Assembly: GCF_007559335.1 (NCBI RefSeq)
Contig: NZ_VMBG01000001.1
Span: 1,674,001 to 1,738,000 of the forward strand
Reading direction: 5' to 3'
From: Rariglobus hedericola
Lineage (GTDB): Bacteria; Verrucomicrobiota; Verrucomicrobiia; Opitutales; Opitutaceae
DNA length: 64,000 bases
Made by a program: the position numbers and the translations under genes. This document shows, piece by piece, positions 57,009-60,771 of this stretch (its first letter is position 1; every line of letters begins with the position of its first letter). Below the pieces are notes generated by a model that had not been told where the DNA came from, searched no databases, and saw only the letters and a program-made list of their open reading frames with translations.

Positions 57009-58349
57009 TCAACGCACCTTCGCGAGCAGTTCCTTCGCCGTCAGTCGACCGGTTGAGGCCGGCCTTTCGCTGCCGCCAAACGGAGGGTTCGTGCCCGCAA
57101 TCACCGGCTTTAACAACGGCTGAGGCACCGGCACGGCCGCTGTGGCCACAGTCGTATCCAAGGACGTGGTGGTCGTCAGCGGAGGCGGCAGACCATTGTT
57201 CGAACGACCGGCCATGGCAGCCTCCCGCGTATTGAGGTAAGCCATGCTGACTTCACGACTCGGGCACTCCATGATCACTTGGCGCAAATAAGCGCAAAAC
57301 TCATCGTGATTACCGCGCCACAGACGGCCGGCCAACCACTCCACCACGCCGGTCTTCATCGAACGCACGCGGTATTCGGGATAGATCGCAGTCAGGTCGA
57401 GCAGGAGTTTACGCGTAAGCGGCTCGATATCCGCCTTGCGATCGCGCAACGCCGGCAGTTTCACCACGACGGGAACCACAAACAACATCTCCTCGATAAA
57501 CGGAAGATCGAGATTTCGTCCCTGATCGTCGCACTCGGCCACGGTAAAAACGAAGCGCAAGGGCCGGTCACGATCACGACGGCGTTTGGCCAGACGAAGA
57601 AAATCGAGCAGCTGCGCCTGTTGCGACGCAGGTAGCAACTCAAGGTCCCTGATCAAAAATGTGCGGGGAATCCCGTCATTCAGTCGATCAAGCGACGCAG
57701 CCGTGGCCAAACCCTCGGATGTGATCTCATGATGACCCAGCACGCACAGGTAGCCACTCGGGTCACCGCACATGGACTGGTATTCACGGGCGATAAGCTC
57801 AAATTCAGAGCCAGGCTCCCCTCTCAAAATGATGCCCAGCGATTCCTGACGCGCCTGCCAAAGCTGGCTGACGACCGCTCGCATGGCGGGACTACGGGCA
57901 ACGATGTGCTGGGTGCGCTGGCCCGCGCCAGATTGTGCACCGGCTTGATCCGCGCCTTCATCCGCCGCCTCGGCCGCCGCCTCGATCTGCTGTGAATCGA
58001 TCAGCTTGTGAATGGCCGAAATCGCCTTCTTCGGGTTGATCGGCTGCAACAACACTTCGCTGATACCCAGAGGGAAAAGCGGAATGATTTGTTCAACATC
58101 GTCCTTGTTCGCGATGAGCAGGATGCGGGTATCCGGCGAGAGATACCGGACCGTTTTGATAAAGCCCGCCATGTCCGTATTCGCATCCAGGGTGATCGCG
58201 CACAGATCATAGAAACGCGTCACCAGCACCCGCTGAAACTCATCGCTGTCGTGACACGAGGTGACTTGAGCGTCGCCGTCGGTCAGCAAAAGCGAAAAGA
58301 GACTGCGCAGGCGCGCATCAGGAATACAGAGCAGGGCTTGGGAGCTCAT
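57009..58349 (-). CDS. Degenerate receiver plus AAA+ (NtrC-like) protein without sigma-54 contact
   Basis: A 446-residue protein. Residues 1-115 fold like a receiver (ALLCIPDARLRSLFSLLLTDG; LCAITLDANTDMAGFI with a possible phospho-Asp; LLQPINPKKAI with the conserved Lys). Residues about 150-385 resemble an NtrC AAA+ domain, but the Walker A is replaced by LRGEPGSEFEL and the GAFTGA loop is missing. ATP hydrolysis and sigma-54 activation are therefore unlikely. The C-terminal 70 residues are Pro/Thr-rich, ending LTAKELLAKVR, without a DNA-binding motif. Last gene of the Roadblock operon. Confidence 0.78.
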   Translation of the reverse strand: MSSQALLCIPDARLRSLFSLLLTDGDAQVTSCHDSDEFQRVLVTRFYDLCAITLDANTDMAGFIKTVRYLSPDTRILLIANKDDVEQIIPLFPLGISEVLLQPINPKKAISAIHKLIDSQQIEAAAEAADEGADQAGAQSGAGQRTQHIVARSPAMRAVVSQLWQARQESLGIILRGEPGSEFELIAREYQSMCGDPSGYLCVLGHHEITSEGLATAASLDRLNDGIPRTFLIRDLELLPASQQAQLLDFLRLAKRRRDRDRPLRFVFTVAECDDQGRNLDLPFIEEMLFVVPVVVKLPALRDRKADIEPLTRKLLLDLTAIYPEYRVRSMKTGVVEWLAGRLWRGNHDEFCAYLRQVIMECPSREVSMAYLNTREAAMAGRSNNGLPPPLTTTTSLDTTVATAAVPVPQPLLKPVIAGTNPPFGGSERPASTGRLTAKELLAKVR

Positions 58350-58400
58350 TCAGGCTTTCGAAAAATAAACACGGGGTGCGATGGCACCCCATGCGGAATA

Positions 58401-58946
58401 TCAATAAGCGCGGCCGCGGAACATGCGGACGGTTTTGTGGACCTCGGTTGCAGGCGCGGCAGCAGCAGGTGCAACCGGCTCAGGCGCAATCGCCGCCGGA
58501 GGGAACGGAGGGGCGGAAAACGGCGTGGCGGTGGAACCCGTGGGAACACGGGCCGCGACGGCGACGGGAGCAGCCGCAACCGGAGACTCAGGGCTGAACT
58601 CAGCCAGGGCGGCCGGAGTCAGGTGCTTCAGGGCCATGTTGGTGACCATGCGCGTCGAGGCGAAATTCGCGGTCTCGGCGGCCATGACCAGCAACACGGC
58701 TTGGTCGGTGCGACGGAAGAGAATCCACTTCTCCGAAAAACGGAGCAGGTAGTCGTCACATGGGAGGAAGTTTTCATCCATCGTCTCGTAGAGCGCGGTG
58801 ATGCGGCGCAGGGCGTCGGCAAACACCTCGGGGGAAAGGAAGGAGGGCATCCGGTTCAAGAACACCTGACCGGAAAGGCCGAAGAGGCACACGCCATCCA
58901 CGCCGGGAATATCCAAAACGTTATCAAAAACCTTATTAAGGACCAT
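58401..58946 (-). CDS. Roadblock/LC7-like protein with Pro/Ala tail
   Basis: A 181-residue protein. Residues 1-110 (MVLNKVFDNVLDIPGVDGVC; ALYETMDENFLPCDDYLLRF; ILFRRTDQAVLLVMAAETANFAS) fit a Roadblock/LC7 fold: helix, strand pair, helix, three strands, helix. These proteins bind small GTPases or act as scaffolds, as MglB does. Residues 120-165 are Ala/Pro-rich and flexible. ATG 58946 was chosen because the upstream extension to 59003 has no family-like sequence. It is 13 bp after its small partner and 51 bp before the receiver/AAA+ gene. Confidence 0.72.
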   Translation of the reverse strand: MVLNKVFDNVLDIPGVDGVCLFGLSGQVFLNRMPSFLSPEVFADALRRITALYETMDENFLPCDDYLLRFSEKWILFRRTDQAVLLVMAAETANFASTRMVTNMALKHLTPAALAEFSPESPVAAAPVAVAARVPTGSTATPFSAPPFPPAAIAPEPVAPAAAAPATEVHKTVRMFRGRAY

Positions 58947-58959
58947 GACGGGTAATAAA

Positions 58960-59286
58960 TTAGCTGATGTTGAGAATAACGCGCATCTGGGTGACGATCT
59001 CATTCACGCGGGCGCGGGAGTTTAGAATCACGCCGACCACCTCGTTATTGAGGGGGATGCAAACCACGGTGAGTGACTTGCCTTGGATTTGCGCCTCATG
59101 GAAGTGCTCGAGCCCGAAGGACTCGCCGATGAGCACTGCGATTTGTTGGAAGTAAACGATGACGTTGGCCAGGACATCGACTTCGTTGCCTTCCTGCTCG
59201 ATGACATCACCGGCCTCTGAACAGCGGACATACCCAATAACATTGGGAGCCTGCATGATTTGGTTAATAGCTAGATTGTTTCCCAT
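58960..59286 (-). CDS. Small Roadblock/LC7-like protein
   Basis: A 108-residue protein from ATG 59286 (MGNNLAINQIMQAPNVIGYV). The pattern NVIGYVRCSEAGDVIEQEG, then VIVYFQQIAVLIGESFG, then KSLTVVCIPLNNEVVGVILN, and RVNEIVTQMRVIL is a Roadblock/LC7 domain with a normal length. No GTPase gene is adjacent. It leads a three-gene operon, divergent from mreB. A possible extended -10 (TGGTATATT) lies 22 bp upstream. Confidence 0.72.
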   Translation of the reverse strand: MGNNLAINQIMQAPNVIGYVRCSEAGDVIEQEGNEVDVLANVIVYFQQIAVLIGESFGLEHFHEAQIQGKSLTVVCIPLNNEVVGVILNSRARVNEIVTQMRVILNIS

Positions 59287-59308: not shown

Positions 59309-59317
59309 AATATACCA
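59309..59317 (-). promoter_or_regulatory. Extended -10 element of the Roadblock operon
   Basis: On the minus strand TGGTATATT matches TGn-TATAnT closely, 22 bases before the start codon at 59286. There is no good -35, which is common with an extended -10. Confidence 0.4.
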
Positions 59318-59342
59318 CGTCGCGTGCCAGCTAGGCTCATTC

Positions 59343-59754: not shown

Positions 59755-60771
59755 ATGGCATCGAATTTATTTGGCTACTTCTCCAACGACATCGGTATCG
59801 ACCTAGGCACCGCCAACACCCTCGTTTACGTGAAGGACAAGGGCATCATCCTGCGTGAGCCCAGCGTCGTCGCTCTCGATACGGTGACCCGCAAAGTCCG
59901 CGCGGTCGGCGAAGAAGCCAAAAAGATGCTCGGGCGCACCCCCGGCAACATCACCGCCATCCGTCCGATGAAAGACGGCGTCATCGCCGACTTCGACGTC
60001 ACGGAGGAGATGCTGCGCTATTTCATCCGCAAGGTGCACAATAACTCCCTGCGCGTCGCACCCCGCGTCGTCATCGCAATTCCCTCCGGCATCACCGAGG
60101 TCGAAAAACGCGCCGTCAAAGACTCCGCCACCCATGCCGGCGCACGCGACGTCATCACCATTCCCGAGCCCATGGCAGCCGCGATCGGCGTAGGCCTTCC
60201 GATCGACGAACCGGCCGCCAACATGATCGTCGACATCGGCGGCGGCACCACCGAGATCGCCATCATCTCCCTCTCCGGTATTGTATTCTCCAAATCGATA
60301 CGCGTCGCCGGCGACGAGCTCGACAGCTCCATCGTCAACTACATGAAGCGCGCCTACAATCTCCTCATCGGTGAACGCACCGCCGAGGAAATCAAGGTCC
60401 GCATCGGTTCCGCCTATCCGCTCGACGAAGAGCTCACCATGGAGGTCAAGGGCCGCGATTCCGTCGCCGGCCTTCCCAAGACCATCCACATCACCTCCCA
60501 GGAAATCCGCGAGGCGCTCAACGACCCGATCTCGGCCATCGTGGACGCCGTGCGCTCCACGCTCGAGCGCTGCCCGCCCGAACTTTCCGCCGACTTGGTG
60601 GATCGCGGTTTTGTCATGGCCGGCGGCGGTGCCCTTATCCGCGGCATCGACCGTCTCCTCAGCGACAAGACCGGCCTGCCGGTGATCATCGCCGACGACC
60701 CCCTTTCCGCCGTCGCCAATGGCACGGGTGCCGTCTTGAACGACCTCAACTGGGTGCTTCAGAACGTCTGA
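59755..60771 (+). CDS. mreB: Rod shape-determining protein MreB
   Basis: A 338-residue bacterial actin homologue that positions the lateral wall-synthesis machine. Actin-type nucleotide motifs: [13 protein letters not shown] (phosphate 1), [14 protein letters not shown] (phosphate 2) and [16 protein letters not shown] (adenosine). [12 protein letters not shown] is the amphipathic N-terminal tip that binds membrane. ATG 59755. The mreC, mreD and mrdA genes follow, in the classical order. Confidence 0.97.

Follow-up and report, generated by a model that had tools for sequence, protein, structure and literature searches.

What can two Roadblock-type proteins be doing in an operon that has no small GTPase gene beside it? 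Proteins of this kind are known from the surroundings of small GTPases and dynein, where they act as regulators and scaffolds. The question is raised by three genes of Rariglobus hedericola (Opitutaceae, Verrucomicrobiota) within a stretch of 64,000 nucleotides (contig NZ_VMBG01000001.1, positions 1,674,001 to 1,738,000; hereafter the window, whose numbering is used for the operon). The first gene, P1 (58960..59286, minus strand), encodes a protein of 108 amino acids with a predicted Roadblock fold. It is followed by P2 (58401..58946, minus strand; 181 amino acids, or 200 from an alternative upstream ATG), with a Roadblock domain at about residues 1-118, a Pro/Ala-rich linker and the C-terminal peptide MFRGRAY, an [FY]RGxxY terminus. 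The third gene, P3 (57009..58349, minus strand; 446 amino acids), encodes a degenerate NtrC with a pseudo-receiver, an AAA+ domain lacking the nucleotide site and the GAFTGA loop, a lid and a long tail. The open reading frames lie where the original prediction had placed them, with gaps of 13 bp between P1 and P2 and 51 bp between P2 and P3.

From the sequence comparisons presented here, we estimate a probability of about one half that P1, P2 and P3 form a GTPase-free Roadblock module of nitrogen (ammonium) physiology or transport. The set looks like an accessory module for membrane transport, not a cell-shape system, because relatives usually carry it directly before the gene of an ammonium transporter (Amt). 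The observations of the original prediction hold, and of its interpretation the Roadblock pair, the lack of an adjacent GTPase and the loss of the ATPase motifs in P3 are upheld, whereas the phospho-regulation of P3 and the link to cell shape are not.

Ammonium transporter genes and sigma-54-type sites

In a census of 39 loci (referred to by L numbers), P1 immediately precedes P2 in 38 loci and P3 follows P2 in 26. One member, L124, duplicates L180 (no difference over the 2.3 kb compared); it is included in these counts and in the 40 rows of tails, and excluded from the 33 class I loci, in which P2 has the [FY]RGxxY tail (the rhodopsin-linked class II is described below). The loci are mutually related, so that the counts are not independent events, and the names Opitutaceae and Opitutales follow the genome names (for L107 and L110-L114 the family comes from name and context only). 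Among the 16 Opitutales loci outside the Opitutaceae, Amt is the next gene after P3 (after P2 in L075, L181 and L184) in 14, and these Amt-linked loci span four families. Pfam confirms the assignment in four sampled loci (8.8e-127 to 1.9e-134), and a PF00909 search finds the linked Amt in 14 genomes. A P-II gene follows Amt in four loci (L069, L071, L182, L183) and was not found beside the other 10 linked Amts. In L184 (6375-8118) the Amt after P2 has a broken frame, perhaps by an assembly error.

The linked transporters also resemble each other. In a tree of 30 Amts, drawn from the PF00909 matches and including one (L160) of the five Amts of the window genome, the 14 linked Amts form a cluster that also takes in one unlinked Amt of the window's family (support 0.891). 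The C-terminal tail EHGNEAY[AP]DFxxYxD is present in 13/14 linked Amts versus 0/9 unlinked Amts of ordinary length; the one linked miss, L156, has a broken frame, and seven of the 30 Amts, longer than 700 amino acids, were excluded from this comparison. These long proteins (L158, L165-L168, L170, L171) are probably Amts fused to a further domain.

Upstream of P1 we find a 16-bp element (59314..59329, minus strand), TGGCACGCGACGTGGT, which resembles a sigma-54 -24/-12 element; its -12 GC is replaced and it has one mismatch to the pattern of the relatives. That pattern, TGGC[AG][CT]N6TGC[GTA], occurs within -300 to +150 of P1 in 24 of the 33 class I loci, at 11-51 bp before the start used in 21 of them and at +12, +18 and +93 in the other three; the start used is the first possible one, and some true starts lie further in. 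Shuffled sequences gave 0.12 sites, 195 other genes of the same loci gave one and the class II loci none of four. The pattern was chosen after the first hits had been seen, so the count is not blind, and the 195-gene control used the same pattern. The window and two close relatives (L040, L041) retain TGGCACGCGAYGTGGT with the -12 GC altered. The sigma-54 activator L197 of the window genome is intact, keeping both GESGTGKE and GAFTGA, and two amt genes of that genome (L199, L201) have an exact site at or before them.

Taken together, these loci are similar to amtB-glnK operons, which are ammonium uptake operons, in having a sigma-54-type site, Amt and (in four loci) P-II in one gene row; they differ in that a Roadblock pair and a dead NtrC precede Amt, and in the lack of P-II beside the other 10 linked Amts. 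The set could also be a mere passenger within the nitrogen regulon, expressed alongside Amt under sigma-54, performing some other task during nitrogen starvation and never touching the transporter. This would fit the sigma-54-type sites at loci without a following Amt (L070, L180, several Opitutaceae-type loci and L127) and the persistence of the pair without Amt in Opitutaceae and Thauera-type loci. We nevertheless consider it rather unlikely, given the position of Amt as the very next gene in 14 of 16 loci, which come from four families, the C-terminal extension peculiar to the linked-Amt clade, and the second pair class, which adjoins another membrane pump.

In the window itself the divergent neighbour is mreB (59755..60771, plus strand), which starts 468 bp from the operon, back to back with it as had been described. 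From this arrangement a link to cell shape, polarity or motility had been suggested, and a module acting with MreB, at least in the Opitutaceae, by re-use of the set beside mreB, draws on the 11 of 16 Opitutaceae-type loci (window counted) that share this neighbour. We regard it as improbable, as mreB is not the neighbour in the other five (L043-L047; the contigs are long in L044 and L045, both of the same genus, and short in L043, L046 and L047), nor in any of the 16 loci of other Opitutales families, nor in any of the remaining census loci. The synteny comparison that had been proposed as a check points instead to Amt, sometimes P-II, and sigma-54-type sites. We treat mreB as a neighbour local to the Opitutaceae and do not count it in the module.

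A Roadblock pair without a small GTPase gene beside it

Low dN/dS values, and the co-occurrence of P1 and P2 in the same genomes, identify P1, P2 and P3 as real genes under purifying selection. In comparisons with three species of the genus, dN/dS is 0.02-0.09 for P1 and 0.06-0.16 for P3, and with two species it is 0.04-0.06 for P2 (the third being saturated); dS is high in all of these (0.8-2.0). P1 and P2 are found together in 9 of the 56 nearest genomes, namely 8 of the 13 of the genus and one of the family. Close P3 orthologues are present in eight of these nine (one cut by a contig end), and in the ninth the contig ends inside P2; matches of P3 to NtrC-type proteins of any kind are found in 48 of the 56.

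According to structure prediction, P1 and P2 belong by fold to the Roadblock/LC7 superfamily, as had been proposed, and the fold matches include Ragulator structures, among them the SLC38A9-RagA-RagC-Ragulator complex (6wj2). Curated models, PF03259 included, gave no Roadblock match for P1 or P2 of the window; across the families, PF03259 matches 6 of 16 P1 and 9 of 16 P2 members at E <= 1 (best 1.5e-5 and 0.0045). The first profiles of both proteins retrieved nothing useful from the PDB sequences, and wider ones reached a Roadblock protein at 0.0047 for P2 and only 0.31 for P1. With profile matches this weak, it is the structure models that carry the fold assignment. Direct comparison of the P1 and P2 profiles was uninformative (probability 26), and a DUF2173 match to P1 at 0.11 was set aside. 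Apart from P2, no open reading frame of at least 100 amino acids in the 39 loci ends in [FY]RGxxY.

The pair might also be a conventional Roadblock activating or exchange factor (GAP/GEF) that acts on a small GTPase encoded at another site, in the manner of MglB and MglA. PF00025 matches occur in 18 of 23 host genomes (the window's included), all in open reading frames of 364-899 amino acids, and large proteins of this kind may also account for the matches in control genomes. No match lies near the operon, in line with the GTPase-free neighbourhood originally noted, and no single-domain Arf-type protein is therefore seen in the 23 genomes (other GTPase models were not searched), so that we judge this explanation very improbable.

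MglB and MglC of Myxococcus xanthus are Roadblock/RLC7 proteins of a polarity module. In contrast to these, the pair described here is encoded without MglA and, in relatives, with Amt or rhodopsin, and P2 carries a linker and a fixed C-terminal peptide. Orphan MglB homologues are likewise uncoupled from a small GTPase (PMC4316618). In the passages of that paper considered here, 328 of 749 MglB homologues are reported as not coupled to a small GTPase and no orphan MglB had been characterised as of 2014; the three passages mentioning transporters concern ABC proteins that were set aside, not Roadblock neighbours (PMC4316618).

A degenerate NtrC with a fixed P-loop replacement

On the sequence evidence, P3 is of common ancestry with NtrC-type sigma-54 activators over the receiver, the AAA+ domain and the lid: a profile of 15 P3 proteins matches NtrC1 (4l4u, 1.5e-23) and, over residues 2-359, NtrX (5m7n, 2.6e-21). 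The 15 members were compared with only four intact references. In P3 of the window LRGEPGSEFEL stands in place of Walker A and the GAFTGA loop is missing, as the original prediction stated. Across the family, Walker A GExGTGKE reads GExGxEFE, with the last Gly replaced by Glu in 15/15 and the Lys by Phe in 13, His in one and Leu in one. Neither the Walker A lysine nor the Walker B Asp is kept in any member, the GAFTGA loop is deleted and the sensor II Arg lost in all 15, and the two arginine-finger positions are kept in 2/15 and 1/15. Such a strict replacement motif in the P-loop argues that P3 is maintained and not decaying.

The receiver and NtrC-like AAA+ outline that had been described are thus confirmed as an outline, and the receiver proves to be degenerate as well. 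Its acidic pair and its Lys are kept in 0/15 each, and the phospho-Asp in 7/15, with Thr in seven (including the window) and Glu in one, the alignment near this position being uncertain by about two residues in the Opitutaceae. A scaffold role remains plausible for P3, and these losses speak against the alternative of a phospho-regulated partner. Pfam detects no C-terminal DNA-binding domain in P3 of the window at E <= 1. At the C-termini of P3 in L069-L074 and L076 there is a conserved HL[LI]E[ST].ADE, absent in the Opitutaceae, where the tail varies by subgroup. Compared with NtrC1 and NtrX, P3 aligns along receiver, AAA+ domain and lid, and differs in having lost Walker A and B, GAFTGA, sensor II, acidic pair and Lys in 15/15, and the arginine fingers in 13/15 and 14/15.

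Retention of the NtrC outline, including receiver and lid, without ATPase motifs, GAFTGA or a recognised DNA-binding domain would also be expected if P3 acted as a dominant-negative NtrC, either poisoning an intact sigma-54 activator or titrating it, and were switched by the Roadblock pair; most loci have sigma-54-type sites on the operon itself. However, contacts within AAA+ rings depend on the arginine fingers and the nucleotide site, which are mostly or wholly lost in P3, and five loci retain the pair without P3. We consider such an antagonist unlikely; it is compatible with the other readings.

Rhodopsin-linked pairs and a proposed role at transporters

A second class of P1-P2 pair, in which P2 ends in xIWG, lies directly before a microbial rhodopsin gene in 4/4 loci, with a gap of 28-51 bp (L185:3142-4779, the first pair of L185; L186:7157-8789; L189:7926-9686; L077:7505-9123). 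The rhodopsin profile matches nowhere else in the census save a second rhodopsin in L186. In L077 the rhodopsin is split over two frames, and the three complete proteins read RYIDW..TTPLML[VI]K, a sequence that resembles the DTK type. Lycopene cyclase follows in L185 and L189, and beta-carotene dioxygenase is found in L185. The constant position of class II pairs before rhodopsin suggests membrane transport as the common theme. Just upstream of the rhodopsin-linked pair, L185 (2432-3124) and L186 (8803-9498) encode a coiled-coil protein of no clear family. A candidate P3 counterpart in L077 (357 amino acids) scored a probability of 2 and is not claimed.

We propose that P1 and P2 form a heterodimer that would dock on the cytosolic C-terminal tail of its Amt and modulate or read out transport. 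The [FY]RGxxY peptide of P2, on its flexible linker, may act as a docking peptide that holds a further partner. P3 would be a scaffold or decoy of NtrC ancestry that couples the complex to nitrogen signalling. It would neither bind ATP in the usual manner nor open sigma-54 promoters, and its receiver would not accept a phosphoryl group normally. In the lineage of the window, beside mreB and without Amt, the set probably still serves nitrogen-related transport in trans, although it may have been re-used beside mreB.

Several findings weigh against this role in nitrogen physiology or transport. No Amt is present in the stretch read around the window operon or 15 other Opitutaceae-type loci (several on short contigs), nor in those read at L070, L180 and two Thauera-type loci. 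None of the five Amts of the window genome is placed in the linked clade: L160 lies beyond it in the tree, the scores of three more are lower and a long Amt is unscored, and the L160 tail, EHGNEAYPDFTQ, only partly resembles the linked tails. The site in the window lacks the -12 GC, and 9 of 33 class I loci have no site. P3 is missing in the Amt-linked L075, L181 and L184 and in both Thauera-type loci, so that it is not essential to the pair. The pair is rare (21/372 genomes of the order), and co-transcription with Amt is no proof of contact with it. Finally, a third arrangement (L078:6539-8786; L202:380-2618, the latter outside the census) has a P1-like gene followed by one that joins a P2-like domain to a membrane stretch and to a sulfatase-modifying-factor (FGE-sulfatase-like) domain, which does not obviously have a transporter role; the L202 fusion is judged from its likeness to L078, not by Pfam. 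The next gene in L078 resembles, by eye, a phosphate-binding protein.

That rarity figure comes from the P2 profile; the P1 profile matches 10/384 genomes of the class and 9/387 of the phylum, none of them outside the window's order, and no P2 match was found on plasmids. A scan of named genomes gave 28 loci, including Opitutaceae, Rariglobus, Coraliomargarita, Cerasicoccus and Puniceicoccaceae and, outside the phylum, Pseudothauera lacus (L127:7669-8444) and a Thauera metagenome-assembled genome (L128:628-1538). Both of the latter have P1-P2 with a YRG tail, and no P3 or Amt was seen in them; of 300 genomes of the P. lacus order only that genome has the pair, and horizontal transfer is likely. 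In L113, a metagenome-assembled genome titled Akkermansia muciniphila contains an Opitutaceae-type mreB-linked operon, and the label is probably wrong. In L190 (6347-8763), a transporter gene of the sodium/proton-exchanger type is immediately followed by a short P2-like gene that has no P1 with it.

By analogy, bacteria might possess a general class of GTPase-free Roadblock heterodimers that are dedicated cytosolic subunits of transporters, the [FY]RGxxY class (mostly with a dead NtrC) for Amt and the xIWG class for light-driven rhodopsin, with a function comparable to that of Ragulator on the lysosomal amino-acid transporter; we advance this generalisation tentatively, as somewhat less than an even chance. 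Ragulator/LAMTOR at the lysosomal membrane similarly uses Roadblock heterodimers as a membrane-side scaffold. The heterodimer is a proposal here, no Rag GTPase or p18-type anchor is seen, and the adjoining membrane protein is Amt or rhodopsin, so the parallel is an analogy only. Among the matches listed from the open-access literature (most subscription journals and all bioRxiv preprints being outside its scope), no title or abstract start dealt with Roadblock genes in combination with Amt or rhodopsin; both folds and ancestors have been described before, and the combination is not met there.

A pair that travels with Amt or rhodopsin and has no adjacent small GTPase provides a testable function for such 'orphan' Roadblock genes, and pull-down experiments could start directly from the fixed C-terminal peptides. 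The dead NtrC with its fixed P-loop replacement is a pseudoenzyme kept over several families. The arrangement suggests that Amt control has, beside P-II, a layer based on Roadblock proteins, and bacteria too may have Roadblock scaffolds on transporters.
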